From the IMG/VR virus record IMGVR_UViG_3300010401_000594, positions 1 to 20,240 of that record: 20,240 nt of DNA. The stretch is one strand, 5' to 3'. The notes beneath the pieces are model-generated. The model made no database searches. It was not told the origin of the DNA and saw only the letters and a program-made list of their open reading frames with translations. Of the stretch, positions 1-19,825 are shown one piece after another. The DNA comes from a virus. Positions within the stretch are counted from its first letter, which is position 1; each line of letters begins with the position of its first letter. The translations under genes were made by a program, and so were the position numbers.

Positions 1-3000
1 CGTCCCGCTTGGACCGTTCCATGATCTCGTCTCACCTGCTTTGATTCCAGGCCGTGAAGGAAGTGGAGCACGTGATGTTGCAGCCGCGTCAATCCGCCCG
101 CCCGCCGCTCCTTGACGCGCTCGTTCTGCTCCTGGGTGAGGGTGAGCAGTCGCTCTCGCTCCGGGTTCAGTTCCCGGACCTCGGCGGCCGGCCCCACGTC
201 GAAGTGGTACTGCTCAGCCTTGCGCGTCTTGTGGACCACGATGTCACGGCCTTTGCAGGCACGGGCCACGACCAGGTCTTCTCCGAACAATCGCTGGCCG
301 TCATTGGAGATGACCACCGTCACCAGCGCGCTGTTGCCGATCCCCTTGGCCGCGCCCTGAAGCGGGTCTCGACCGCGTTTGATCTCTTCCCAGCGCCAGG
401 CCGCGTACCAGATCGAGACGCTTCCGGTCGGATCGGTTAAGGTAATGAGCGCCCGCTCCCCGGCCCCGGTCTTGGTGCGGACAGGTTGGGCGTCGATCTC
501 GGTGACGCGCCCGAGCATGCGGAAGCAGGAACGGCCGTAGCCGCCTTGCAGTTGCTCCAGCACCCGACCGATAGGGACACAGTTCATCCGCTCGAAGGCG
601 GCCTGCTCGAACTCGTTGTAGACGATCTCGACGAACCAGGGTGCGACCGCGAGCGCGATGTCCAGGTTCACCTGATTCTTGTGCAGTCCGATGGCCTGCA
701 GGTTCTTGGAGAGGGCCGTTGGGCAGCTTTCCAGGAACCGGGTCCAGTCGGAGTACGGCTGTTTCCGCAGTAGGAGCCGGGCCGCCGCCTCTCCCACGCC
801 TTTGATGTTCACGAACCCGCCCAGGATCGTGTTTTCGGCCGGGCTGGAGAAGTTCATTTGGGAACGGTTTGGATCGAGCAGCATCAGGGTCCCGCCGTTT
901 GCTTTGAACTCCCGCAGCAGTTCTCGCTGCTGGCTTTCTTTCCTCTCGTGGTTTACCATGACGCAGGCGAAGGCCGCCGCGAAATGGGTCTTCAGATAGG
1001 CGGTCCAGTAGGCCATCAGCCCGTAGGCGGCGCCGTGGGCCTTGTTGAACAGGTAGTTCCCGGCTTTCTGGCACTGGACCCAGAGGTGCTCGGCTTCGGT
1101 TTCGTTAATTCCCCGGCCACTCATCCCGTCGAGATACGGCTGATGGTACTGCTCCAGCACCTGGGTTCCGCCCGATTTCGAGATCAGCTTTCTGATCTTG
1201 TGGACATCCGGCCAGTCCATACCAGCGACCCGCATCAACTCCATGACCTGCTCCTGGTAGACGATGACCCCGTACGTTTCCCTGAGCACTTCCATGACCG
1301 CCGGGTGATAGTCGGGCATCGGCATTCGGCCGTGCTTGCGCTCGATGTATTCATGCGTGCCGCCCGACTGCAACGGGCCGGGACGGCCGAGTGCCGCGAG
1401 CGCCACCAGGTCGAAGATGTTCGAGGGCTTCAGGTCTTTCATGATCCGGCCGGTGGTTTGCCCTTTGAACTGGAACAGCCCGGTGTTCCGGCCCTCGGAG
1501 AGAATCTGGTAGATCAATACATCGTCGAACGGGAGCCGGTAGACCCAGTCGTGATCGTGCCCTTTCTGCTCCAGCAGTTCGGACACGGCCGCCATCGTCT
1601 CGCTGGAGAGCAGATCGATCTTCAGCAGTCCCTGCTGAGCGGCGAAGTTCATATCGCAGGCGACGACTCTCGGAAACTTCTTGCCGCGACTGTCCGGTGG
1701 CCGGGCCACGATGCCGACAATTTCCGAGAGGTTGTTGCAGTCTACGACGACTCCTGCCGCGTGAATTGTCTGGTTCCTGATCTGCCCTTCCAGTTGGGCG
1801 GCCAGCGCGAGTTTCGGCTGCTGTCTGACGAGCGCCTGCGCCGACTTGCTGTCGTGGATCAACTGCCCTAGCAGCCCCTTGGCCTTGATCCCACCCTCAT
1901 TGTCGATCTCAGGCAAGAGACCGATCAAGGAGGCCCCGTCACTGTAGGGGATTTCGTGAACGTCGCACAGGTCTTTGATCGACTGCTTCGGCCGGAAGGT
2001 CGAGAGTGCCGCGATCTGTGCCGTGTGTTCGGTGCCGTATTTCTCTTCCAGGTAATCGACCACCCGTTCCCGGTACCGGGCGTCGATGTCGAGATCGATG
2101 TCCGGCATGTCTTTGCGGGTTTTGTCGATGAATCGTTCGACCGGGCATTTGAAGAAGATGGGGTCGATCTGGGTAATCGAGAGGTACCAGCAGATTAAGG
2201 AGCCGCCCGCCGAGCCGCGCGCGATGCACCAGTAGCGCCGTTCCCGGCACCAGCGGACGATGTCGGTCACAACCAGGAAGTAGTTCTCGAAGCCGTGGTA
2301 CCGGATGATCTCCAGTTCGTAGGCGAGCCGCTCCTCGTACACCTGCCACTCCGGGGTGTCCTCGTCGGGCAGGAGCCCCAGGCCTCGCCGGTACGCCTTG
2401 CCGTCCGCGATCCACTGCACGAGGAGGTCGTAAGCCGTCCAGTCCGGTTGACATTCCGGCGCGGACTGGATGTTGTAAATCGGGCCGGTCGAGCGGGGGA
2501 GTTCGACCTGGCACATGTCGGCGATCTTGACCGTGTTCGCGCAGGCCGTCTCCAGGACGATCTTGTCCGCCAGCGGCATGACCTCGGCGGCGCGGGCCAT
2601 GATCTCTTCCCCGGTGCAGTAGTAGTGGTAAGCGGGAATCTTGTACCGCTTCGGATCACTCATCTTCCGGCGCTGACCGATGGTGAAGACGGTATCCTGC
2701 GCTTCGGCATGGGCCGGCTCAGGGAAATGACCGTCATCGGTCAAGACCATCGGGATGTTCAACTCTTGGGCGATCCGGTACAGGGTGTTGCAGTGATCGT
2801 AGGAGGAGACGCCGAATACCTCGTTCGTGCGCGGGTTGACCGTCTTCTCCAAGCCCGGACAGGGCACCAGTTCCACGTAGAACTGCTCGATCTTTTCTTT
2901 CAGTGTTGCGCAACAATCGTAAGCCGATTCAGCGTCTCCTTCCTGGATCATCCGGGAGATGAGACCGCCGATGCAGCCGGTCATTACTACGAGCCCTTCC

Positions 3001-3428
3001 TGATGCTGGATCAAGCATTTCCAGTCGATCCGGGGCTTGCTGTAGAAACCTTCCGCGTAGGAGAGATAGTACATCTGCAACAGGTTCTTGTACCCTTGCT
3101 GGTTGTAAGCCAGTACCGTTAGATGCGCCTGCTTATTGTCCTTGGTCGCCTGCTCCTTCTTGTTCGAGGAGACGGCACCCTTCTGGCTCATGATGTTGCA
3201 GTGGTAGAACTCCACTCCGAGTATCGCTTTAAGGCCAGCCTTTTGCATGGCGCAGTAAAAAGGAGCATGCGAAAAAATTGAACCATGATCGGTGATTGCA
3301 CAAGCCGGTTGTTGAATGGCTTTCAATCGAGAAACAATCTGCTCGGGTGTGCCGTACCCGTCCAGAAGCGAAAACATTGAGTGTCGATGAAGCCCAATAT
3401 AGCTAATCCGATCCGTTTTTTCTTCCAT
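1..3428 (-). CDS. dnaE: DNA polymerase III alpha subunit (DnaE-like), 3' end outside window
   Basis: This is the replicative C-family polymerase. The frame is open without a stop from the ATG at 3428 to the left edge, giving about 1142 residues, close to the usual DnaE length of about 1160, so only the extreme C-terminus should be missing. An N-terminal PHP domain carries LHRHS (H14, H16), D23, ITDHG (H48), GVE (E73), H102, C152 and D232/H234. The polymerase core has a GSAGGSL motif near residue 405, MPDIDLDID with the catalytic pair D445 and D447, and KIDLL with the third aspartate D605. FNKAHGAAYG starts at F794, a helix-hairpin-helix lies near 873-890 and an OB-fold near 968-1010. An AGGA-type ribosome site lies 10 bases before the ATG, inside the end of the GIY-YIG gene, which overlaps by 26 bases. 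The first 75 codons are AT-rich compared with the rest. No DnaQ-like exonuclease domain is fused to it. Confidence 0.96.
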   Translation of the reverse strand, partial: MEEKTDRISYIGLHRHSMFSLLDGYGTPEQIVSRLKAIQQPACAITDHGSIFSHAPFYCAMQKAGLKAILGVEFYHCNIMSQKGAVSSNKKEQATKDNKQAHLTVLAYNQQGYKNLLQMYYLSYAEGFYSKPRIDWKCLIQHQEGLVVMTGCIGGLISRMIQEGDAESAYDCCATLKEKIEQFYVELVPCPGLEKTVNPRTNEVFGVSSYDHCNTLYRIAQELNIPMVLTDDGHFPEPAHAEAQDTVFTIGQRRKMSDPKRYKIPAYHYYCTGEEIMARAAEVMPLADKIVLETACANTVKIADMCQVELPRSTGPIYNIQSAPECQPDWTAYDLLVQWIADGKAYRRGLGLLPDEDTPEWQVYEERLAYELEIIRYHGFENYFLVVTDIVRWCRERRYWCIARGSAGGSLICWYLSITQIDPIFFKCPVERFIDKTRKDMPDIDLDIDARYRERVVDYLEEKYGTEHTAQIAALSTFRPKQSIKDLCDVHEIPYSDGASLIGLLPEIDNEGGIKAKGLLGQLIHDSKSAQALVRQQPKLALAAQLEGQIRNQTIHAAGVVVDCNNLSEIVGIVARPPDSRGKKFPRVVACDMNFAAQQGLLKIDLLSSETMAAVSELLEQKGHDHDWVYRLPFDDVLIYQILSEGRNTGLFQFKGQTTGRIMKDLKPSNIFDLVALAALGRPGPLQSGGTHEYIERKHGRMPMPDYHPAVMEVLRETYGVIVYQEQVMELMRVAGMDWPDVHKIRKLISKSGGTQVLEQYHQPYLDGMSGRGINETEAEHLWVQCQKAGNYLFNKAHGAAYGLMAYWTAYLKTHFAAAFACVMVNHERKESQQRELLREFKANGGTLMLLDPNRSQMNFSSPAENTILGGFVNIKGVGEAAARLLLRKQPYSDWTRFLESCPTALSKNLQAIGLHKNQVNLDIALAVAPWFVEIVYNEFEQAAFERMNCVPIGRVLEQLQGGYGRSCFRMLGRVTEIDAQPVRTKTGAGERALITLTDPTGSVSIWYAAWRWEEIKRGRDPLQGAAKGIGNSALVTVVISNDGQRLFGEDLVVARACKGRDIVVHKTRKAEQYHFDVGPAAEVRELNPERERLLTLTQEQNERVKERRAGGLTRLQHHVLHFLHGLESKQVRRDHGTVQAG

Positions 3429-4080
3429 TACGTTTTCGTTCCTGGTAGCGACGTTGCCGAAGTCTCGCGAGCATGAGGTATCTTTCCTGATTGTTTATTT
3501 GCCATCGTTCGTCAGCAGCCTTACGACACGTTTTGCATCTTCTGCTTCCATAAACTTCGATATGCAGGTTATCTCCAGTCAGAGAATGCCCATTTTTACA
3601 GTGTGTGACTCGTTTTTCCTCCGACAATTTCTTTCCCGTTTTCGAAGCGCGCATCTTCTCAATTGATTCCGGTTTGATGATGCGCCCTTTGTTGGATTCA
3701 CTTATTCGTTGCCGTGTCGTTGCGCTGTGCGTGTAACCTGCTCGCGACTTGGTTCGTCGTTCAATTTCCTCCGGTGAAAGTCTTCGCCCCGCTGAACCGT
3801 CGCCGCCATCCGTTAGATTGGTTAACCTAGCACCGTTCGAGCGGTATCGTTCAATCCAGTGTTCCTCACGGTCACGGTTCGTTGTCTCTTCGAGGATCAG
3901 TAACTTTGGTATCCGGCCATCTCTCAGTAAGGACCGTATCCATTTACAGCGATAGGTCGCGCCACCTTTTTCTGCGTAGCGAATGTGGTCGCGTAGTCGA
4001 TACTTGGCAGGACCCTTTGTGACCCCGATATATCTAACTTCGCCTGTGTCCGGTTCTGTAAGTGCATAGATTGTGTTCAT
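3403..4080 (-). CDS. GIY-YIG homing endonuclease
   Basis: A free-standing homing endonuclease of 225 residues. The N-terminal GIY-YIG nuclease domain begins with IYAL and RYIGVTKG, followed by RLRDHIRYA and the conserved glutamate region REEHWIERY with NLTDGGDGS. The middle (about 115-165) carries two NUMOD3-like DNA-binding repeats of the form RQRISESNKG and IEKMRASKTGKKLSEE. The C-terminus has a zinc-finger-like CKNGHSLTGDN followed by CKTC. G+C is far below the surroundings (about 40 % in 3541-3600 against 65 % in 2401-2460), a sign of recent arrival. Its 3' end overlaps the dnaE start by 26 bases, so it sits exactly between the helicase and polymerase genes without breaking either. The ribosome site is weak. 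The role as an intron-less mobile gene is inferred from the family; its target is probably the polymerase gene of related phages lacking the insert. Confidence 0.93.
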   Translation of the reverse strand: MNTIYALTEPDTGEVRYIGVTKGPAKYRLRDHIRYAEKGGATYRCKWIRSLLRDGRIPKLLILEETTNRDREEHWIERYRSNGARLTNLTDGGDGSAGRRLSPEEIERRTKSRAGYTHSATTRQRISESNKGRIIKPESIEKMRASKTGKKLSEEKRVTHCKNGHSLTGDNLHIEVYGSRRCKTCRKAADERWQINNQERYLMLARLRQRRYQERKRNGRKNGSD

Positions 4081-4139: not shown

Positions 4140-6083
4140 TCAGGCATTCGTCTTCTCCCTTGCCTCCCGATACAGCAGCCGCTCAATCAACGTGGCGAAC
4201 GCTTTGGTCTTGGTCGCCGAGTCCGAACTGCTGCCGTGGACCAGGCAGTTGTTGGACAGGAGGCAACTCCAGAGCATCTGCGCCGCGAGCCGGTCACCCA
4301 GCAGTTCATCCAGGTGGGTGCGTGTCAGCCGGTTGTGAGTGATGAAGTGGCGGCAGATAACGTCACGCGGCACGGTCTGACAGGCGGCAATAGCCGCGAT
4401 CACGGCGTTCTCGTTCGGGATCGTCTGCCGCGCATACTCGACCTGCGAGTATTGATCGTAGCCCATCGCCAGGTCGTCATAACACCGCTCCAGGTGGGCG
4501 ATGGCATACTGAACATGGCCGATCCCGACATGGAGCACCATCTTGCCGTCCACCTCCCGGAAGTTCCCACATAACGCCGCAATCGGCACCGAGAGCTTGG
4601 CCAGCTTGTCGAACGCGCGCCCCTTCTCCATCAGCGGGATGCTCTCGTGGTACTTCGCGGTCAGCCGGATCGTCTCTTTCTGGAGCAGTTTCTGGGCGCC
4701 CTCAGTGAACGAGACCTGGTCCCGCTGCAGGCTCCAGACGAGAATCGCCAGGTTGTTGAAATGCCGGCGCACGCCGGGTCGCTCATTTCGCTCCCGAAGC
4801 TGGGTGATGACTTCCACTGAGGTCGACTCGGAGGCGACGGCAATCGACTTCGTGAACCGGGCGATGTCCTGGCGGCTGCGGATGACGCCTTCAATCGCGC
4901 GGCAGGCGCCGTTGTAGCTGGCGATCGTACGGCCATCCTCGGGATTCGTAATCCAGACCATGCGGACCATCGCAGGCGTCTTGGCGTTATGAATCTTGGT
5001 GATCTCGGCGCGGCCCGAGGAGCGCAGCGCGGTCAACTGGCTGGTGATGTCCCGGTTCTTCCGCTGCATCTCGTCGATTTCGTCGAGCACGACGAAGCCC
5101 CGGTGGTTGCGAGGCAGAGCGCCCCACTTGGTAATGGGCACCTTGTCGATGAACTCGATCCCGCCGATGAGTCCCGCGAGCGAGACGTTCTCGGCCGAGA
5201 TGAACTCCCCGACATCGATCATCTGCATCATCCGGCGCGCGAGAGTGGACTTGGCCATTCCGGTATCGCCGATGATGAGCGTTTCCACCCAGCCGTTTTC
5301 GATCTGCCGGTTCCCGCAGGAGAACTCCAGCGCCGAGAAGATCGTGTCGAGCACCACCTGCTGCAAGTCGTGCTGGCCCCAGATACCGGTGTCCTGCTCG
5401 ATGTAGGTGTGGAGCTTGGACAGGTGATCGGCGACCTGCTCGCCCTGACCGGGCTGGAACCATTCGATGGCATCGAGCACCTCCTCGTTCAGGATAAAGT
5501 TATCGAGCGCGTTGCGGGCCGGCTCTGCCCGGTGCAGGTTCAAGATCATCTCCTGACTTTTCGGATCGGCCTGGACTGAGCCCCAGAACCAGTAGTCGTG
5601 GTTGTCGCCAATCGGTTCCCCGTGGTAGTACGCCTTCCGGATACCGTTGTAATCCTCGCGCATCTGGGAAAGCTCGACCGGGGGCGAGATAAGCAAGTGC
5701 TGGATCGATTGCCGCTTCGCGGTGTGCAGTCGCACGACTTCACACCGCTTGTAGACCCCGAGTATTCGACGAACCGCCTGGTTCTGCTGCTCCTCCGAGA
5801 CCCGGAACATCTGGAGTGCTTTTTCCGAGCGATAGTTGATCGGCAGCCGCCACGGCTTCTCCTCGACGTTCATCTCGTAGATCGAGCAGTGCTCACACAG
5901 CTTTTTCTGGTTCCGGGGACAGTCCACTACCAACTCAGTGGGGACCTGATAGCTCGTGAGCCCGTGGCTCTTTCCCATGGCGTGACCGAGAAACTTCACC
6001 TGCTGCCCGAACAACTGGACCGTGTCCAGGTCTTTGAACGAGACCTCCTGGACCTCTTCCGTCTCGCTCCAGTCCTCGGTCAT
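4140..6083 (-). CDS. MCM-family AAA+ replicative helicase
   Basis: A 647-residue AAA+ ATPase that best fits the MCM helicases, which unwind the replication fork as hexamers. The N-terminal third carries a cysteine cluster C55-x7-C63-x2-C66 where MCM proteins hold a zinc finger, and probably an OB-fold. The ATPase core has an MCM-style Walker A (GDTGMAKS, K278), a loop region AENVSLAGLIGG, Walker B VVLDEIDEM (D334, E335), sensor 1 WITNPEDGR (N380) and a probable arginine finger RSRQD (R404). Spacing and order match the MCM pattern GDPGTAKS, DEFDKM, ANPxxGR, SRFD. About 130 C-terminal residues look helical and may form the winged helix. It follows the primase gene by 18 bases, which supports a fork helicase role. 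Other AAA+ relatives (Mg-chelatase or McrB types) share the Walker A and are the main alternative. No DnaB-like gene is in the window. Confidence 0.85.
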   Translation of the reverse strand: MTEDWSETEEVQEVSFKDLDTVQLFGQQVKFLGHAMGKSHGLTSYQVPTELVVDCPRNQKKLCEHCSIYEMNVEEKPWRLPINYRSEKALQMFRVSEEQQNQAVRRILGVYKRCEVVRLHTAKRQSIQHLLISPPVELSQMREDYNGIRKAYYHGEPIGDNHDYWFWGSVQADPKSQEMILNLHRAEPARNALDNFILNEEVLDAIEWFQPGQGEQVADHLSKLHTYIEQDTGIWGQHDLQQVVLDTIFSALEFSCGNRQIENGWVETLIIGDTGMAKSTLARRMMQMIDVGEFISAENVSLAGLIGGIEFIDKVPITKWGALPRNHRGFVVLDEIDEMQRKNRDITSQLTALRSSGRAEITKIHNAKTPAMVRMVWITNPEDGRTIASYNGACRAIEGVIRSRQDIARFTKSIAVASESTSVEVITQLRERNERPGVRRHFNNLAILVWSLQRDQVSFTEGAQKLLQKETIRLTAKYHESIPLMEKGRAFDKLAKLSVPIAALCGNFREVDGKMVLHVGIGHVQYAIAHLERCYDDLAMGYDQYSQVEYARQTIPNENAVIAAIAACQTVPRDVICRHFITHNRLTRTHLDELLGDRLAAQMLWSCLLSNNCLVHGSSSDSATKTKAFATLIERLLYREAREKTNA

Positions 6084-6101
6084 CCGGGCACCGGGCGGCG
6101 C

Positions 6102-7046
6102 CTAGACCTTGACCGCCTGCTCGACCAATGCTACCCAATCATCCAGTGTATGTCCCAGGTTGACCCAGTCCGAGAAGTCGCCGTTCGCCGGCAATCCTTC
6201 GGAAGGCAACGTGACAATGTAAACAGCCTCGGCTGAGAGCGCCAGCTTCTGGGCGGCCCGCTCGGCGCCCTTCTTGCCGGCCTCATCGATGTCGAAGCAG
6301 AGATAGACCGTCTTACCCTTGAACAGTTCGTGGCTATTGTCCGGCACCTTTCCGGCCCCGCCCGTGAAGGCGAAGGCGCTGTGGATGCCGAACTCCCAGG
6401 CCCGCATCGCGTCCTTCTCCCCTTCGAGACCGACCAGGATTTCATACTGACTCTGGTGCTCGATAGGGAAGAACCGGACAGCGCCGTGGCCCGGAGCCCA
6501 GTGGAGCATCTTGGCGCGTTCGTCGTTCCGGTTGTACAGGCGCACGTCCACCCACTCCCCGTTCTCCCCCTTGATGGGGATGGTCAGGCGTGACGGGTTC
6601 GGATCACGGCGCATGTAACCGATCTGAAAATGCTTCATCGTGCTGGCCTTCAGGCCCAGCATCTCGCAACAGACTTGCAGCACTTTCGGCCGGGAGAACA
6701 GGAAATCGTGATGCTGCTGTACGATCGCATCACTGATCTCCCCGATGATCCCCAACTCCAGCGCGAGCTTGCGGATTGCCTCCCCATTGCTCGCGATCCC
6801 GTGATGGATGCGATACAGGTCGATCACGTCCCCTTCCGCGTTACAGTTGGAACTCTGGCATTTCCAGAGACCGGTGTGAACATTGAAGGAGGCCGAGGAG
6901 GTATGGGTGTTATCATGGGAGATACAGAAGAAGCGCGCCTCCCCGGAATCGGAAACCGTCTCGATCCGGGCATAACGGCCCAGCCACTTTTCATAACCGT
7001 CCGTTTTCTGAATTTTCTCCTTACACAGTTGCCCCAGCCGTGCCAT
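6102..7046 (-). CDS. DnaG-type DNA primase
   Basis: A 314-residue primase that should make RNA primers for the phage fork. The N-terminal part has a CHC2-like zinc-binding module (C41, H44, C63, C68) in the order CISHD ... WKCQSSNCN followed by GDVIDL. The central part FQIGYM and LTIPIKGENG resembles the catalytic core start of DnaG. The TOPRIM domain shows ILVGLEGEKDAM (E208), AFTGGAGK and YLCFDIDEAGKKGAE (D252, D254). It is about half the length of cellular DnaG (about 580) and lacks room for the C-terminal DnaB-binding domain, which fits with the neighbouring helicase being MCM-like. The ATG at 7046 has a good GGGAGAG site 5 bases upstream and overlaps the J-domain gene by 26 bases, so translation is probably coupled. 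Confidence 0.92.
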   Translation of the reverse strand: MARLGQLCKEKIQKTDGYEKWLGRYARIETVSDSGEARFFCISHDNTHTSSASFNVHTGLWKCQSSNCNAEGDVIDLYRIHHGIASNGEAIRKLALELGIIGEISDAIVQQHHDFLFSRPKVLQVCCEMLGLKASTMKHFQIGYMRRDPNPSRLTIPIKGENGEWVDVRLYNRNDERAKMLHWAPGHGAVRFFPIEHQSQYEILVGLEGEKDAMRAWEFGIHSAFAFTGGAGKVPDNSHELFKGKTVYLCFDIDEAGKKGAERAAQKLALSAEAVYIVTLPSEGLPANGDFSDWVNLGHTLDDWVALVEQAVKV

Positions 7047-7563
7047 GTTCGCTCTCCCTGTCCTGCTCTTGTTGTTTGATTGTGATAGCCTGCTTGTACG
7101 CCAGGTTCACCTCGACCATCCGTTTATGGTCACCCCCGACATCCGGATGGTGAATTTTGCTCAAAATTCGGTAAGCGGCCTTGACCAGGTCCAGCGGCGC
7201 ATCCTCGGTCAGGTGAAGCTGCTCCCAGCAGGTTTTCGTCTTGGCCCCGGTGCCTTTGAAAGGATTGCGCTTCCAATCATCCCATTCCTGGCTCGGATCA
7301 CGTCGTTTCTGCTGCTGATCCTTCTGAGTGCGCTCTCGACCGTGATGACCCTTCGTGCCAAGATCGTTGTTGACGGCAGAGTCCAGGAACCGGCAAGCAT
7401 CTTTGAACCAATCAATATCGACGTACCAGACCTTGTCCCCACCGTCCCACTTGCGGAAGTTCGAGGGCACCTGCTTGATCGCCTGAACCAAGTCCGGGTC
7501 ATATTCGAACCAGATGTGACAGCCTTTACCGTCATGAGTGACCGCGTATTCATAATAGGCCAT
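7021..7563 (-). CDS. J-domain (DnaJ-like) protein
   Basis: A 180-residue protein. The C-terminal part (about 112-160) is a J-domain: CWEQLHLTEDAP, then AAYRILSKIHHPDVGGD with the diagnostic HPD triad at H139-P140-D141, then a last helix with NLAYKQAI. J-domains stimulate the ATPase of DnaK. The N-terminal 60 residues (VPSNFRKWDGGDKVWYVD) resemble the short module seen at the start of HARP/UvsW-type helicases, which is inference. A basic, glutamine-rich linker lies at about 70-110. It overlaps the primase and precedes the helicase gene, so a helicase-loading or remodelling job together with host DnaK is plausible, by analogy with lambda P/DnaJ/DnaK. There is no Shine-Dalgarno sequence: a 16-bp hairpin ends only 10 bases before the ATG. 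Confidence 0.88.
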   Translation of the reverse strand: MAYYEYAVTHDGKGCHIWFEYDPDLVQAIKQVPSNFRKWDGGDKVWYVDIDWFKDACRFLDSAVNNDLGTKGHHGRERTQKDQQQKRRDPSQEWDDWKRNPFKGTGAKTKTCWEQLHLTEDAPLDLVKAAYRILSKIHHPDVGGDHKRMVEVNLAYKQAITIKQQEQDRESEHGTAGATV

Positions 7564-8449: not shown

Positions 8450-9220
8450 TTACGGTTTGAGACACTTCTGGATCAGCTTGGTGATGTGCGGCTCCTCCCA
8501 GTCGCCGAGACGGGACGAGCGGCACTTCGCGTTCACTTCGACCGCCCCAAGCTGAGGACGGAGGCGAAGTTTGCGGATGACTTTGACGACATCCTTGTTT
8601 TGCGGGTCCGGCTTTTCGAGCATCGTGTACCGGGCCATCGTGTCCACATAACCCGGCAACTCCTCTTCGATCCGGCCCGAGAGAGCCGGCCCGATCCCGT
8701 TCTCCGTGCTTCGCTCGTGCGCCAGGAAGATGGTGTGGATCGGCAGGTTTCGCAGTTGGCGGACGATGGCCTGCATCTGCATCAGGATGAGGTTCCAGTC
8801 CTGCAACTGCGGGAGAACGCGGTCGGCCTGCTTCAGGATGTCGTTCATCAACACCCGCTGAAGCTCGGTCAGGTTGTCCACGACTACGGTTCCCCACCAG
8901 TTCGGATCGGCTTTGCACTCATTGCCGACTTTCTGGATCAGATTGACCATGTCCGCGAACGACTTGATCGGCTCGAAGAACAGGTCATCCAGGTTGATGC
9001 CGAGTTCTTTGATGAGGGTCGGGTCCGGGTTCTGAAGGGCCAGGAGGCCCTGATCGCAGTCAGCGAACAGGATCGGGCCTGGGGCGGTCGCGGCACAGGT
9101 CGTTTTCCCTGCGCCGGGACGTCCGTAGATGATTGCGTTGAAACGGAACTGCGATACATCCGAGACACGCCGGGGACGCTGAAACCGTGCCACCGGCTGC
9201 CTGGGGGCAGCGGCTGCCAT
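8450..9220 (-). CDS. Sak4-like RecA-fold ATPase (AAA_24)
   Basis: A 256-residue single-domain ATPase of the phage Sak4/RecA-core type, involved in single-strand annealing or recombination-dependent replication. Walker A is GRPGAGKTT (residues 33-41, K39), the strand ILFADCDQG follows at 50-58, and Walker B is TVVVDNLTEL (D115). A later strand HTIFLAHERS may carry the sensor residues. The C-terminus is basic, with VIRKLRLRPQLG. The ATG at 9220 has the best ribosome site of the region (AAGGAGG with about 5 bases spacing). It is the first gene after promoter P1 and is followed at 36 bases by the SSB-like gene, the expected partner. RAD52-like or Erf annealases are excluded by the clear Walker motifs. 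Confidence 0.85.
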   Translation of the reverse strand: MAAAAPRQPVARFQRPRRVSDVSQFRFNAIIYGRPGAGKTTCAATAPGPILFADCDQGLLALQNPDPTLIKELGINLDDLFFEPIKSFADMVNLIQKVGNECKADPNWWGTVVVDNLTELQRVLMNDILKQADRVLPQLQDWNLILMQMQAIVRQLRNLPIHTIFLAHERSTENGIGPALSGRIEEELPGYVDTMARYTMLEKPDPQNKDVVKVIRKLRLRPQLGAVEVNAKCRSSRLGDWEEPHITKLIQKCLKP

Positions 9221-9362: not shown

Positions 9363-11246
9363 TTATCCGTTCCCGAAACCCTGGACCAGGAGCATTTCGG
9401 AGAGGTCTTGTTTCCGCTGGAGAGCGGTCAGAATCTCGTGATCCACCGTCGTCTTCTGCCGGCTTCCCTTCTTGTCCGTCTTCGGCAGATAGGTCACCAG
9501 GTCGATGATCTGGTACGGCCGGGTCCGGCCCATGCGGTGACCCCGGTCCACGGATTGGCTACGTTCCAGGAAACTGAACGTCAGCGAATGGTAGATCATC
9601 ACATCGGCAGCCGGGAGATCGAGCCCGTAGGCCCCGGCCTGTATCTGACAGATCAGCACGCGCAGCGGGTTCTCCCGGTCGTTCAGGCTCACGCGCAGGT
9701 GCTCCCGGTGCTCGTTCTTGACGCCTCCCTGGATGATTCCGAAGTCACGGTCCTCGACCAGCCCTGCCTCCATCAGCGCATCCCGGATGGCCTCAATCTC
9801 CGGTCGGAACCGACACCAGACCACGATTTGCTGGTCAGTGTCGGCGAGCGCGTACCGGACGTAATTCACGAGCCAATCGGTCTTGGCCGACTTGATCCGC
9901 TCACAGATGGCCCGCTCGCCGATCTCCTTCTGGACCGGGAACAAGCCCGAGGTCACCTGCTGCAAACGGGTGATCTGCACCAGTGCGTTGGCGACCGAAA
10001 GCTCCTGAACGGTGCCGTCCTCATTGGTTCGCGCCGCGTACATTTCTTCTTCGATCTGTCGATAAAGCTCGGCCTGTTCGATAGATAGGGCGATATCCAC
10101 CTGCTGGTAGCTCTTCTCGGGCATGTCCGTGATCGTCGCCTTGGTCACCCGGTAGGCACACGAATACATCCGCGCGATAAAGCTCCCGATCTGAAGCGGA
10201 TTGAAGCCGGTGAAGTCGTTTCCGGAGAACCCTCCCAGGAGGAAGTACTGCCGCATGAAGTTCCAGTAGCTGGTGCCGAACACCCTGTCGTCGATGAACC
10301 GATAAAGACTCCACAGGTCCCCCGGATGGTTGCCGAGCGGGGTCCCGGTCATCGGGACCCGATACTCGGCGTGATCGGCCAGCTTGAACGCCGCTTTCGA
10401 AACCTGCGCGGTGCGCTCTTTGATCGTGGTCGCCTCATCGGCGATAACCGCTTTCCAGTAGAACTTGCAGAGCGGCTTGATGAGCCTGGCCAGCGCCTCC
10501 CAATTCAAGATGAACACGGTCGGCCGTTCATCGAACTGTCCGGGCTCGCCGTCGTACTGCCCTTTCTCACAGTGCCGTTCGAGGATGTCACGGCGTTCGG
10601 TCAAAGGGAGATCGATCAACATGACGACATTGGCTTCCGGCCAGATCGCTTCGATAGCCGCCTTCCACTGCAAGGAGGTGCCCTTCTTGCAGAGGACGAG
10701 GAAATTACTGCGGGTATCGAGCCAGCGCATCACGTCGTTGGCCCAGCGCGTCTTGCCACATCCCATCTCGGAGTACTGGCCGAAGCCGCCGAATTTGCGC
10801 TGCCGGAAGGTCTCGACCGCCCAGCAGAACGCATCGGTTTGATGCTTGTAGGGAGCGGGTTGACCGAAGGGTGTCTCCGGGTAAGCGGTCGCCCACTCCT
10901 TGGGAGACGCGAGCATCTCATCCCGAATGGCAATGTACTCGTCCGTTGCCTCGTCGATCCGGCCGACCGTCTCGGTAACCAGGATGTTCGTTTTCGAGAG
11001 GGGATAGGCGAGGCAGTCGTAGGTTTGCCAGCGCATCGCGCCAGGGAGATGGGAGAGCATCCCCAGCGGCTTTTCCCGGCCGGCGAAGCAGATCATCCGC
11101 TGACCCAGCGCATCCGGCGCGATCCCCACTTTGTTCATTTCTGAAAGGCCGATCTCTTTGGGTCCGGTGGGAGCATTGATCCGCACCCGGCCCCCGGACC
11201 AGCTTTCTTTCTTGGGTCCTTCGACAATCAACAAGTCATCAATCAT
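9363..11246 (-). CDS. SNF2-family DNA helicase/translocase
   Basis: A 627-residue superfamily 2 ATPase of the SNF2 branch. After about 130 N-terminal residues of unknown role come the PYKHQTDAF motif (Q-motif-like), motif I SEMGCGKTR (K165), motif Ia FLVLCKKGTSLQWK, motif II IADEATTIKE (D270-E271-A272-T273, a DEAT box in place of DEAH), motif III VPMTGTPLGN, and in the second lobe motif IV/V VLICQIQAGAYGLDLPAAD and motif VI SQSVDRGHRMGRTRP (R571, R574). Length and motif order match phage SNF2 proteins, which act as dsDNA translocases in replication or recombination. The start overlaps the sigma factor stop as ATGA, with no strong ribosome site, so translation is coupled. Confidence 0.93.
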   Translation of the reverse strand: MIDDLLIVEGPKKESWSGGRVRINAPTGPKEIGLSEMNKVGIAPDALGQRMICFAGREKPLGMLSHLPGAMRWQTYDCLAYPLSKTNILVTETVGRIDEATDEYIAIRDEMLASPKEWATAYPETPFGQPAPYKHQTDAFCWAVETFRQRKFGGFGQYSEMGCGKTRWANDVMRWLDTRSNFLVLCKKGTSLQWKAAIEAIWPEANVVMLIDLPLTERRDILERHCEKGQYDGEPGQFDERPTVFILNWEALARLIKPLCKFYWKAVIADEATTIKERTAQVSKAAFKLADHAEYRVPMTGTPLGNHPGDLWSLYRFIDDRVFGTSYWNFMRQYFLLGGFSGNDFTGFNPLQIGSFIARMYSCAYRVTKATITDMPEKSYQQVDIALSIEQAELYRQIEEEMYAARTNEDGTVQELSVANALVQITRLQQVTSGLFPVQKEIGERAICERIKSAKTDWLVNYVRYALADTDQQIVVWCRFRPEIEAIRDALMEAGLVEDRDFGIIQGGVKNEHREHLRVSLNDRENPLRVLICQIQAGAYGLDLPAADVMIYHSLTFSFLERSQSVDRGHRMGRTRPYQIIDLVTYLPKTDKKGSRQKTTVDHEILTALQRKQDLSEMLLVQGFGNG

Positions 11247-13609: not shown

Positions 13610-14713
13610 CTAAGGCGCGACCATCGGCATCAGAATAGCGTAGTAGGCCCCGGAGTCCGGACTGAAGATCAGGGGGCGCAGGTCACTGGTGTAGTGCAGG
13701 TTGACGCGGGCGCCGTTGAAGCTGTTCAGGATGCCGGCGACTTGCCGCGCGTGCAGCCAGAGACTCTGCTCGGTTTCCGGGAGATCGTTCTCGCACGGAA
13801 GCTCCTCGTGGGCATCACCCACACCCTTGGCCTCCGTCCAGAAGCGCATCGCGTTCCCGTCGATCTCCAGGCGGAACCGGTGCATGTCCTCCTTGGCCAA
13901 GACGTCGATTCGCTTGACCGTCTCCAGGAGCATCTCCCGGTTCACGCTCACGTTCGAGATCGGCTCGCGAGGGATCACCTTCTGATAGTCCGGCGCGCGC
14001 CCGCTGTTCAGGCGGCTCTTGATCGTGTAGAACGGGGTCCGAAATTCGATCTGGCCCTCGTCTACCACAATCTCGATCTCCTCGTCCTCATCCTTGGCGA
14101 GAAAGTTCTGGATTTCGGTCACGCTGCGCCGGGGAATGGTGCAGGCGAACTCGGGCAGATCGTCGCCCACCAACTGCACCGGGTAGACCGCAAGCTGGTG
14201 GGTGTCAGTCGCTGCCATCTCCACCTTCCCTTCACAGAGAGTGAAGCGCGCCCCGTTCAGGCCGGGCCGGTTGGCGTCGTTCCCCATCGCGAACTCGACC
14301 TTCTCCAGCATGTCCCGGAGGAGCGACTGCGAAAGGATGACGCCGACCTTGTCATCGGTCGCGGGGAGCGTGGGCATCGGATCGGGGTAAGCGGTAAGCC
14401 GGAAATGGGAGCGGCCCGACTTCAGATGCGCGATGTCGTCCACCACCTTCAGGGTGACGTCGGCCCCGCTGAAGGCCGAGATTACTTCCATGAACCGCTT
14501 CGCCGGCAGGATCACCTCGCCCGTCGCCTCGACATGGCAGCCCAGCGCGCACTTGATCTCCAGTTCGTAGTCGGTCGCGGTCAGTTCGATCCCGATTTCC
14601 CCGGTCACGACCCGGATACACTCCAGCGCCGTGACGCTGGCGTTCTTCTTGACGCCTCTGCTCGTAAGCGCCAAGAGTTCTTTTAGATGCTTTGTAGGAC
14701 AGGTGACCTTCAT
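13610..14713 (-). CDS. dnaN: DNA polymerase III beta subunit (sliding clamp)
   Basis: A 367-residue processivity clamp, almost exactly the length of bacterial DnaN (about 366). Three repeated clamp folds are visible: residues 1-120 with LTATDYELEIKC and ILPAKRFMEVISAF, 125-245 with SLLRDMLEKVEFAMGND, RPGLNGARFTL and the strongly conserved AATDTHQLAVYPV, and 250-367 ending in YYAILMPMVAP, like the YVVMPM end of bacterial clamps. It should encircle DNA and tether the phage Pol III alpha subunit encoded about 10 kb away on the same strand. The start overlaps the HNH gene's stop as ATGA; an AAGGA site lies 11 bases upstream inside the HNH gene. The first 20 or so codons are AT-richer than the rest, as seen also at the start of dnaE. 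Confidence 0.95.
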   Translation of the reverse strand: MKVTCPTKHLKELLALTSRGVKKNASVTALECIRVVTGEIGIELTATDYELEIKCALGCHVEATGEVILPAKRFMEVISAFSGADVTLKVVDDIAHLKSGRSHFRLTAYPDPMPTLPATDDKVGVILSQSLLRDMLEKVEFAMGNDANRPGLNGARFTLCEGKVEMAATDTHQLAVYPVQLVGDDLPEFACTIPRRSVTEIQNFLAKDEDEEIEIVVDEGQIEFRTPFYTIKSRLNSGRAPDYQKVIPREPISNVSVNREMLLETVKRIDVLAKEDMHRFRLEIDGNAMRFWTEAKGVGDAHEELPCENDLPETEQSLWLHARQVAGILNSFNGARVNLHYTSDLRPLIFSPDSGAYYAILMPMVAP

Positions 14714-16710: not shown

Positions 16711-16785
16711 TGGTCGGCGGGGCAGGGATCGAACCTGCAACCCTCATCGTGTCGGGATGACGCTCTACCGTTGAGCTACCCGCCG
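16711..16785 (-). tRNA. tRNA, anticodon read as GAC (Val), with CCA
   Basis: A full cloverleaf of 75 bases can be drawn by hand. The acceptor CGGCGGG/CCCGCCG is 7 bp perfect, the D-stem GCTC/GAGC is 4 bp, the anticodon stem TCATC/GATGA is 5 bp, the variable loop is GGGTT, the T-stem GCAGG/CCTGC has loop TTCGATC, the discriminator is A and CCA is encoded. The anticodon loop is CCGACAC, giving GAC (valine), but position 33 is C instead of the near-universal T. The C1-G72 pair with A73 is more typical of proline tRNAs, so the amino acid identity is not certain. It lies in the P2 leader, before the lipoprotein gene. Confidence 0.88.
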
Positions 16786-17577: not shown

Positions 17578-17802
17578 TTAAGGCGTCTCGACTGACACGA
17601 TCAACTGCACGCGGCGGCATGGCACAGCCAGGAGCGGCGCTTTACGAATGGCGTAGTAGGTCACGTCCTTGAGGTAGTAGAACTTAGCGTCCTGAGCGAT
17701 CAGTGTCCCTTCGGCCGTGTTTCCTTTGTCCAGGAGCAGACGCACTCGCGTGTCTTTGAAGTAACTGCTGAAAACGTCCTCAAGCACTACTGCTTCGGTC
17801 AT
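17578..17802 (-). CDS. Small Sm/Hfq-like protein, 74 aa (candidate)
   Basis: A 74-residue protein with a good ribosome site (GGGAGG, 7 bases). After a short N-terminal helix-like stretch (1-16), residues about 18-47 follow the Sm1 pattern: VRLLLDKG, AEGTLIAQD, FYYLKD, with glycine, glycine, leucine, aspartate and leucine at Sm-like spacing. It aligns without gaps to the Hfq stretch [20 protein letters not shown], keeping both glycines, the aspartate and LK. The end LLAVPCRRVQLIV resembles the Sm2 strand; the Hfq YKH triad is replaced by RKA. If right, it would form a ring that binds RNA. It overlaps RNase H by 23 bases. No family match can be confirmed by eye, so the fold assignment is a proposal while the gene itself is well supported. 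Confidence 0.6.
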   Translation of the reverse strand: MTEAVVLEDVFSSYFKDTRVRLLLDKGNTAEGTLIAQDAKFYYLKDVTYYAIRKAPLLAVPCRRVQLIVSVETP

Positions 17803-18220
17803 CTCTGATCCTCCCGCAGGCGATTCCCGCTAGATGGTCTGCCCGATTGTTGTTCTCGTCCTTGTCATGACCTTTGACCCAGTGAATGGTGACGCGGCCG
17901 AACTCCTTCATCCGGGTCTTGACCGCCTGGATGAGCGGAATGTTATACTTGGGGTTCCAGTTCAGGGTGAGACAACCGCGACAGTACTGGCTGTCCGTGG
18001 TGACGGTTACCCAGAGGTTGGCCCGGTCTTCGAGCTTGCCGAGAGCCTCGAAGATCGCCAGCAGTTCCGCCTGCTGGTTAGTACCCGTGCCCAACGGTTC
18101 AGCCCATTCCTGGCGATACCCCTCACATTCCGCAACGATCCCCGCCCCGATATGGTGCAAGACACCTTTATTCGGCATCTTGCGGCAGCCACCGTCCGTC
18201 CAGAGGTAGACCCGTCTCAT
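17780..18220 (-). CDS. rnhA: Ribonuclease HI
   Basis: A 146-residue RNase H, close to the 155 residues of bacterial RNase HI, which removes RNA from RNA-DNA hybrids such as primers. The four acidic catalytic residues are visible: D9 in LWTDGGC, E52 in TNQQAELLAIFEAL, D76 in VTTDSQYC and D128 in NNNRADHLAG, with the helper histidine in WVKGHDKDEN (H118). The start is the ATG at 18220, overlapping the methyltransferase stop as ATGA; a longer frame reaching 18403 is only the methyltransferase in another frame. In this phage it probably clears primers laid down by the encoded primase. Confidence 0.95.
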   Translation of the reverse strand: MRRVYLWTDGGCRKMPNKGVLHHIGAGIVAECEGYRQEWAEPLGTGTNQQAELLAIFEALGKLEDRANLWVTVTTDSQYCRGCLTLNWNPKYNIPLIQAVKTRMKEFGRVTIHWVKGHDKDENNNRADHLAGIACGRIRDDRSSSA

Positions 18221-19383
18221 TCCGCAGCCGCTTTCATCTGCCAATAGCGGATACGGGCGCGTGCGATGGCCGCGTAGTGGGGGTCTAGCTCGCAGCCGTA
18301 GAAGCCGAAACCCAACGGCACGGCCCCGCAGCCGGTCGAGCCCGAACCCACGAACGGGTCCAGGATGTAGCCGCCGACCGGCGTCACCAGAGTACAGAGC
18401 CACGCCATCAGCTTCCGGCTCTTGACCGTGGTGTGATTGTTCTTCACCTGCACGGGGGCGAAGCGGGGGTCCTTTTCGAGGCCGCCCGGATTGACCCGGT
18501 GCAAGGTGACCATGGGGAACTCTTCGAGACCAGCTTCCTTTTCGCTGCGGCTTGGTTTAGCCTGGTAACCGAAGCAGGGGAAGTAGCGACTCACCCCTCC
18601 CGAATCGCCTTGCGTTTCCGCTCCGGTGAATTCGGGCATCGGTCCCGCGTACCCTTCTCGATTCTTCCGCCGAGTGCCCGCTTTCATCTTACCGCTCTTG
18701 CGCGTCCCGACCTGTTCATCCAGCACTTCGTCGGCTCCCTCGGACAAGACCAGATTGGGCGGCCAGCGGTTTTTGTCGCCGCATCGCTCCTGGATTTCCT
18801 CGGCACTCATCGCCCGAATACGAAAGGTCGAGTCGCCCTGAAAACCAGCCGAACCATCAGCACCGCTCTTGTGCCAACCGGGAACATCGTGGCTCGCCCG
18901 TGAGACGCTACAAGCATCGGTGTTCAGGCCGCCCGTTCCGTGAGACGCAAAGTTCGCGGTGATGCTGCCCTTGACCGGTTTGCGCGCCAGTATCCAGTGC
19001 TCGGCCGCCGGCTTCAACGCGGTGCTCCAGCCATCTCCCAACTTCTTGACTTTGGGGCCGCCCTGACCATAGATGTGATGCACGATGTCCCGGATGTCAA
19101 AGCCGCTGTTGTCGAGCGCGGTCGCGGTCCAGTAGGAGGTGCGCGGGATCGCCCAGACGAGGGCATGGGACCCTGGTTTCAATACCCGCAAGCATTCCTT
19201 GAACCGAGCCTCAGCCCACGCGATCCACTTGTCCCGGTTCCCGTAATCGGTATCCCATTGGTTCCGCTTCCCCATGAACTTAATCCCGGCCGGGGGATCG
19301 GTCACCATACTGTCGAAAGCGTTCTCGGGAAGCGTGCGGATGAGATCGAGACAGTCGCCTTCGGCGATCTCCCACTCACTCAT
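18217..19383 (-). CDS. DNA methyltransferase, DPPA type (beta class), orphan
   Basis: A 388-residue DNA methyltransferase. The catalytic motif VTDPPAGIKFMG (D29-P30-P31-A32) has alanine where most enzymes have tyrosine; this DPPAGI-FMG form is known in a phage branch of site-specific methylases. The SAM-binding motif ILDPFVGSGSTGCGAV lies near the C-terminus, giving beta-class order, followed by GFYGCELDPHY. The long middle (about 110-330) should recognise the target. The start is the ATG at 19383, chosen because MSEWEIAEGDCLD is the expected start of the fold; the frame continues to 19488 only through the preceding gene, which it overlaps by 8 bases. No restriction partner is seen. Confidence 0.9.
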   Translation of the reverse strand: MSEWEIAEGDCLDLIRTLPENAFDSMVTDPPAGIKFMGKRNQWDTDYGNRDKWIAWAEARFKECLRVLKPGSHALVWAIPRTSYWTATALDNSGFDIRDIVHHIYGQGGPKVKKLGDGWSTALKPAAEHWILARKPVKGSITANFASHGTGGLNTDACSVSRASHDVPGWHKSGADGSAGFQGDSTFRIRAMSAEEIQERCGDKNRWPPNLVLSEGADEVLDEQVGTRKSGKMKAGTRRKNREGYAGPMPEFTGAETQGDSGGVSRYFPCFGYQAKPSRSEKEAGLEEFPMVTLHRVNPGGLEKDPRFAPVQVKNNHTTVKSRKLMAWLCTLVTPVGGYILDPFVGSGSTGCGAVPLGFGFYGCELDPHYAAIARARIRYWQMKAAAE

Positions 19384-19825
19384 CTTGTTTTCCCACGAGT
19401 CGCTGTACGACCTCGTAAATCTTGCCCCAGCGGCGCTTCGTTCGCTCTGAAACCACCATCCCGAAAGTGCCCAGATAACCAGCAGCATCCAGGATGTTGT
19501 CGTATTTGTGCCTGCGTCCCTCGCGACTGATCTTCAGGAGGACCATCATCATCGGCACATCTTCGGGAGCAAATGCCGCCCCTTCGACCAGAAGCCCCCG
19601 CGCTCGTCCCCAGGTGGTCCAGTAGTCGGCCGTGTCGCAGAAGTCGTCGAGAGGATGGCCATAATCCGTGTTGCGGGCGCCGTGGATCAGTGTGTCGGCG
19701 TGTTGGAGGAGAAATTCGTAAACGTCATCAGCAGTTATCGGTGCTTCAGCCAACTGCTGCTGTGCGCGAGCATAAGACGGGTTGTGAACGGTCTTCGATT
19801 CCTTTTCCTCTTGCCAGCCGGCCAT
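19376..19825 (-). CDS. DUF6378-like phage protein, 149 aa
   Basis: A helical protein with the pattern I associate with the DUF6378 phage family: RNTDYGHPLDDFCDTADYW, then FAPEDVPMMMVLLKISREGRRHKYDNILDAAGYL. The conserved acidic and histidine residues suggest an all-alpha fold such as the MazG-like nucleotide pyrophosphatases, but a reaction is not established. The start is the ATG at 19825, which has GGAGG 7 bases upstream; the frame extends to 19885 but that part forms the leader hairpin. It is the first gene after promoter P3 and overlaps the methyltransferase by 8 bases. Confidence 0.8.
   Translation of the reverse strand: MAGWQEEKESKTVHNPSYARAQQQLAEAPITADDVYEFLLQHADTLIHGARNTDYGHPLDDFCDTADYWTTWGRARGLLVEGAAFAPEDVPMMMVLLKISREGRRHKYDNILDAAGYLGTFGMVVSERTKRRWGKIYEVVQRLVGKQDE

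Follow-up and report, generated by a model that had tools for sequence, protein, structure and literature searches.

Gene content of the window

The DNA analysed here, referred to as the window, comprises the whole of an IMG/VR record (20,240 bp), itself a fragment of a viral genome. Nearly all of its genes lie on the minus strand, in a cassette of early genes comprising DnaE, a NUMOD3/GIY-like ORF, a helicase, a primase, a J-domain protein, a Sak4-like protein, an SNF2 protein, a sigma factor, methyltransferases, a beta clamp, and RNase H (Table 1). Genes had been placed at this locus by a first-pass annotation, and ORFs were found at the positions it gave. The C-terminus of DnaE is truncated by the window edge. 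Besides the MCM-family helicase described below, the SNF2 gene is the only helicase-like gene found in the window; DnaB is absent from its 20 kb, and no Orc/Cdc6 loader was seen.

Several smaller features accompany these genes. The NUMOD3/GIY-type, homing-endonuclease-like ORF (3403-4080, minus strand) sits between the helicase and DnaE and overlaps the DnaE start; a 46%-identical stretch is found at another place in a relative (L092:5214-5513). Directly upstream of the primase gene, and overlapping it, is a gene for a small protein with a C-terminal, DnaJ-like J-domain (7021-7563, minus strand), which might bring DnaK of the host to the replication complex. Almost 190 bases of the RNase H ORF are shared, in a different frame, with the second methyltransferase ORF (18217-19488, minus strand), and the RNase H start is probably misplaced. 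In the phage early region, a tRNA-Val (GAC) gene is predicted at 16711-16785 (minus strand), on the margin of a small ORF.

Table 1. Positions of replication-related genes and sequence features in the window.
Feature	Position	Strand	Evidence and remarks
Pol III alpha (DnaE)	3..3428	-	PHP, palm, fingers and HhH; Pfam PF07733 3e-60; phrog_405 4e-240
MCM-family AAA+ helicase, 647 aa	4140..6083	-	Pfam MCM, PDB profile matches, AlphaFold model, Foldseek, VIA
R409, equivalent of the MCM SRFD arginine and putative arginine finger	4857..4859	-	invariant, 65/65
Walker B LDEIDEM, residues 333-339	5067..5087	-	E335 in 64/65
Walker A GDTGMAKS, residues 272-279	5247..5270	-	G272, D273 and K278 invariant, 65/65
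Four invariant cysteines, C55, C63, C66 and C114	5742..5921	-	65/65 aligned members
TAG stop, sole interruption between primase and helicase modules	6102..6104	-	in frame with the helicase ORF
DnaG-type primase, 314 aa	6102..7046	-	CHC2-like zinc ribbon (C41, H44, C63, C68); RNA-polymerase core with TOPRIM (E210, D252, D254)
Sak4-like RecA-fold ATPase, a partner for recombination within the cassette	8450..9220	-	phrog_124 5e-38
SNF2-family helicase/translocase	9363..11246	-	Pfam SNF2 7e-19
DNA polymerase III beta sliding clamp, three domains	13610..14713	-	Pfam PF00712/02767/02768; phrog_947 9e-64
RNase H, may remove primers at this fork	17780..18403	-	Pfam RNase_H 1.4e-19

An MCM-family helicase

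The helicase gene is confirmed to encode an AAA+ protein of the MCM family. The protein is built of an N-terminal OB/zinc tier (residues ∼14-190), an AAA+ core (∼200-420), a lid (∼430-550), and a helical, possibly winged-helix-like C-terminal tail (∼555-646). The Pfam MCM model matches it with 41.4 bits (E 1.2e-10) and is matched by 61 of 65 family members. A PDB profile search built from 7 sequences gave MCM proteins as the best 60 of 87 matches (top E 9.5e-17), and when it was repeated with 65 sequences only MCM appeared among the matches listed (best E 8e-13). The AlphaFold model (pLDDT 90.3) retrieved MCM or MCM complexes in all of the best 50 Foldseek matches (top E 5.9e-21). Alignment of the model with Sulfolobus MCM (6mii) by VIA-align gave a Z of 29.5 over 447 residues (rmsd 4.8) and spanned model residues 3-544, so that the N-terminal OB/zinc tier matches as well as the ATPase. 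Two pairs of model strands, 307-312/315-320 and 358-362/366-370, correspond to the helix-2 insert and the presensor-1 beta-hairpin of MCM, and in the HMMER alignment the sequence ITK(I) of the helicase lies opposite ISKA of MCM2, which holds the lysine of the presensor-1 hairpin. The C-terminus is modelled as helices and short strands at 558-646; structural matches cover mainly residues 5-549, and single, weak helix-turn-helix matches were obtained in relatives.

It is highly improbable that the protein belongs to another branch of the AAA+ superclade, such as Mg-chelatase, RavA/MoxR, McrB, or the sigma-54 activators, and resembles MCM in its motifs by chance. Pfam Mg_chelatase does reach the cut-off with 23.1 bits, but it is matched by only 2 of the 65 family members, MCM is far better in Pfam, in the PDB sequence profiles, and in structure, and the N-terminal OB/zinc tier is also MCM-like. 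Scored with the family HMM, haloarchaeal MCMs gave 13-45 bits, compared to 1.9 for E. coli NtrC, −0.3 for YifB, and −3.4 for McrB, with RavA unlisted. Chelatase, RavA, and McrB thus do not match the protein better than MCM does; like NtrC, they stay at background.

The first-pass annotation had called an MCM-type AAA+ protein after the primase, and Pfam, PDB profiles, and fold all bear this out; the Walker A and Walker B sequences and the cysteines that it listed are real, and so is a sensor-1 asparagine. The cysteine cluster is probably a zinc site in the N-terminal tier, judging from its conservation. N380 and D406 are likewise invariant in the 65 sequences. One motif had been misassigned: the SRQD sequence listed in the MCM signature set is not the arginine-finger motif. 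It contains S403 and R404, which vary freely, and lies just upstream of R409, which is the equivalent of the arginine in MCM SRFD and would be the finger. The context of R409 is A-R-F-T in the window and R-F-D in most relatives. In the sensor-2 region, 58 of 65 relatives have arginine at position 491, where the window helicase has phenylalanine.

The primase and its usual fusion to the helicase

The ORF upstream of the helicase is a complete DnaG-type primase without a DnaB-binding domain. Searched against Pfam, the window protein has sound TOPRIM matches and a weak zinc-ribbon match, while in the family the CHC2 DnaG zinc ribbon is recognized in 59 of 68 members and Toprim_2 in 56 of 68. In an alignment with 67 relatives, G209, E210, D252, D254, G257, and D290 are invariant, and the zinc cysteines C41, C63, and C68 are kept in 90% or more of the aligned members. 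The model (pLDDT 94.4) retrieved Aquifex DnaG first (E 6e-16), followed by other DnaG proteins and by the Twinkle, T4, and T7 primases. The ORF stops after the TOPRIM core, and the C-terminal DnaB-binding domain is absent. The first-pass annotation was right about this absence in a shortened primase, but the relatives change how it is read: the domain is missing because the primase is normally the N-terminal half of a DnaG-MCM fusion protein.

At least 261 relatives were confirmed in viral contigs by a scan with a five-row alignment, and 80 loci were examined for fusion. Primase sequence was present in the frame of the helicase at 75 of these (at L079 as a fragment only), three more were cut by a contig end, and the last two, L055 and L088, hold a stand-alone helicase. 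An adjacent split primase/helicase pair was found at none of the 80. The fused protein has ∼950 aa, with 930-984 aa in the five isolated phages ctIqW946 (a metagenomic isolate record), Krampus, Wollypog, BSTP5, and API480. The two stand-alone MCM-like helicase genes (L088:9989-11857 and L055:3886-5718) lie near Sak4-like and queC genes; no primase was found in frame with them, nor in the ten other ORFs scanned. Fusion to a primase is therefore not obligatory.

In the window, the primase and helicase ORFs share one frame (7046-6083, 321 codons), which only the TAG interrupts. An ATG at position 6083 follows 18 bases past the TAG, just ahead of the conserved helicase domain. TAG is an ordinary stop in the window, where it ends several other genes, the clamp gene included; a tRNA with the anticodon CUA was not found there, and recoding of TAG (code 15) was rejected on these grounds. 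The products may be two coupled proteins or a read-through fusion; otherwise the TAG would be an error in the sequence or a recent mutation. That the split is real and functional, with the helicase re-initiating at the ATG and the two proteins acting as separate subunits, is a serious possibility, though we stop slightly short of calling it an even chance. The ordinary use of TAG, the lack of a matching tRNA, and the well-placed ATG all favour it. Against it, the purine-rich ribosome-binding sequence that several other genes of the window have is missing before this ATG, a split pair is without precedent among the 80 relatives, and the closest of them (L010, 63% identical) has no stop at the TAG position and has its modules fused; sequence error or read-through would account for the TAG equally well. 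Separate subunits would be compatible with the primosome proposed below. In Krampus (L003) and Wollypog (L005) it is Pol III alpha that is divided over two genes and the primase-helicase that is fused, the reverse of the window.

The same helicase family also carries a different primase. The helicase of Bacillus phage vB_BboS-125 is a member (543 bits) and is fused to an archaeo-eukaryotic primase (L004:18876-21959; Pfam DNA_primase_S); in a quick tree it is nested among DnaG-fused members with supports of 98 and 85, on a long branch. One MCM family thus carries DnaG, an archaeo-eukaryotic primase, or none. Two unrelated primase classes on the same helicase family are direct evidence for the exchange of modules between ‘bacterial’ and ‘archaeal’ replication systems.

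The DnaG-MCM primase-helicase is widespread in uncultured phages and is not a one-off. A scan of genome_contigs with the five-row alignment, through two peptide patterns, returned no relative, so that the family looks viral as far as these two patterns reach. Scans of viral contigs with single proteins confirmed 0 relatives, the chosen peptides not being conserved. A search for closer kin with alignments of the window and L010, for both MCM and DnaE, returned only the contig of L010 itself and one distant DnaE. A helicase relative is also encoded in a Bacillus velezensis plasmid record of 70.5 kb (NZ_CP079100.1, 49123-50757), where the gene bears the annotation DNA primase small subunit; this record is perhaps a phage-plasmid.

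A proposed primosome and its known counterparts

A search for DnaB_C (PF03796) in 50 related records, six of them full-length phage records, gave no match. The genome to which the window belongs is partial, and the absence of DnaB is for it evidence by kinship. The L010 record (63 kb, partial) extends downstream of the helicase and the window upstream of it; DnaB is encoded in neither. Pol III alpha is present in 13 of the 50 records, among them the isolated phages Krampus and Wollypog, and Pol A in 32, with no record encoding both. Mapped on a tree of 52 helicases, the choice of polymerase requires 3 changes, of which starred branches force at least 2, compared to 12 in shuffles.

The combination of MCM, bacterial primase, and Pol III alpha is thus recurrent. 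With phrog_947, none of 50 related records yielded a beta clamp, and with PF02767 none of 22 did; among the matches listed, the organisms given for phages with a window-like clamp and for phages with this helicase did not overlap. The contig of L010 ends inside the primase and is therefore silent on a clamp in its upstream cassette. The first-pass annotation had proposed a hybrid replisome, unusual in having a complete bacterial-type set around an MCM. The joint presence of MCM, DnaG-type primase, Pol III alpha, and clamp holds, but the rarity does not extend to the set as a whole, and it is the clamp only that makes it unusual.

Very probably, the pair is a DnaG-MCM primase-helicase that serves as the replicative primosome of the phage instead of DnaB and DnaG. 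Computation establishes the family and fold of both modules, their intact catalytic residues, their near-universal fusion in relatives, the failure to find DnaB there, and the joint presence with either Pol III or Pol A, while the hexameric state of the helicase, its 3′-5′ polarity, its loading, the geometry of the fork, and the use of the clamp are inferred by analogy. The MCM part would form a hexameric ring around the leading-strand template, along which it would travel 3′-5′. RNA primers would be laid by the primase, bound to or contacting the fork-facing N-terminal tier at the place where the excluded lagging strand would emerge; the phage's Pol III alpha and beta clamp would extend these primers, and RNase H may remove them. 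The logic would be that of T7 gp4 or Twinkle, but with an MCM AAA+ motor instead of a RecA-fold one and with the opposite strand tracked. Counting against this reading are the phenylalanine at residue 491, the TAG, which could mean that primase and helicase act apart, the two relatives with a stand-alone helicase, and the fragmentary genome, the remainder of which could encode a DnaB. A plain motif search for peptides that might bind the clamp gave nothing convincing, a result of little weight.

It seems unlikely that the protein is instead an MCM-related ATPase that acts only in initiation or in recombination-dependent restart while host DnaB unwinds the fork. Such a role would suit the fragmentary record, the ability of phages that encode a primase to borrow DnaB from the host, and the recombination-type genes (Sak4, SNF2) of the same cassette. 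However, the primase lacks a DnaB-interaction domain and is fused to MCM in nearly all relatives, which ties primer synthesis to the MCM motor, and the helicase has the complete N-tier and AAA+ fold of MCM.

Beyond a primosome at this locus, we give roughly even weight to a broader reading: a largely undescribed, widespread class of phage primosome that joins MCM with DnaG, has exchangeable modules (DnaG, archaeo-eukaryotic primase, or none), and has been paired repeatedly with Pol A or Pol III alpha. The lineage of the window would add a beta clamp, and its 3′-5′ motor on the leading strand would drive a bacterial Pol III/clamp replisome. The bacterial Pol III replisome is built around DnaB on the lagging strand, whereas MCM works on the leading strand. 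If the broader reading is true, the motor would be the only non-bacterial part of the fork in this lineage, and a leading-strand motor would drive a replisome that in bacteria follows a lagging-strand helicase. A replisome of MCM, DnaG, Pol III alpha, and clamp would in this way test how far helicase polarity and replisome layout are exchangeable.

Archaeal MCM and eukaryotic MCM2-7 share the N-terminal OB/zinc tier and the AAA+ fold with presensor-1 hairpin with the window helicase, but are only ∼13-16% identical to it in structural alignments and carry no fused primase. Cellular MCMs are loaded by Orc/Cdc6. In T7 gp4 and Twinkle a zinc/TOPRIM primase likewise precedes a ring helicase, and the primase fold matches that of the window; their motor, however, has the RecA fold (SF4) and moves 5′-3′ along the lagging strand, and the window protein, with an MCM AAA+ motor, is hence not a member of this group.

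Closer counterparts come from phages. MCM helicases joined to archaeo-eukaryotic primases (AEP) have been described in bacterial phages and plasmids (PMC5862659, PMC4538821). BcMCM of a Bacillus cereus prophage and gp45 of Bacillus phage vB_BboS-125 (AEP-MCM) resemble the present pair in the fusion of a phage primase to an MCM-type helicase, but their primase is of the archaeo-eukaryotic type and that of the window is a TOPRIM primase of the DnaG type. BcMCM is reported to be a 3′-5′ helicase that also has primase/polymerase activity (PMC4538821). In the literature searched, which covered surveys of viral replication and BcMCM in part, no description of a DnaG-MCM fusion was found.

The nearest known systems are Krampus gp47 (Microbacterium phage) and Wollypog gp50 (Arthrobacter phage), labelled ‘DNA primase/helicase’ (cf. 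phrog_18685), in which a TOPRIM primase is likewise followed by an MCM-like helicase, with 27-28% identity over 78% of the length of the window helicase. Krampusvirus and Wollypogvirus have DnaE-type Pol III genes nearby, as in the window, but they differ from it in having one fused gene, and a phage clamp was not found in them. The gene is annotated just as primase or primase/helicase, the Krampus copy being entered as ‘DNA Primase’ in the Microbacterium phage paper (PMC7302621), and the PHROG belongs to the function-unknown class. The present comparison suggests a likely function both for this PHROG and for the ‘DNA primase’ or ‘primase/helicase’ gene of dozens of isolated phages.
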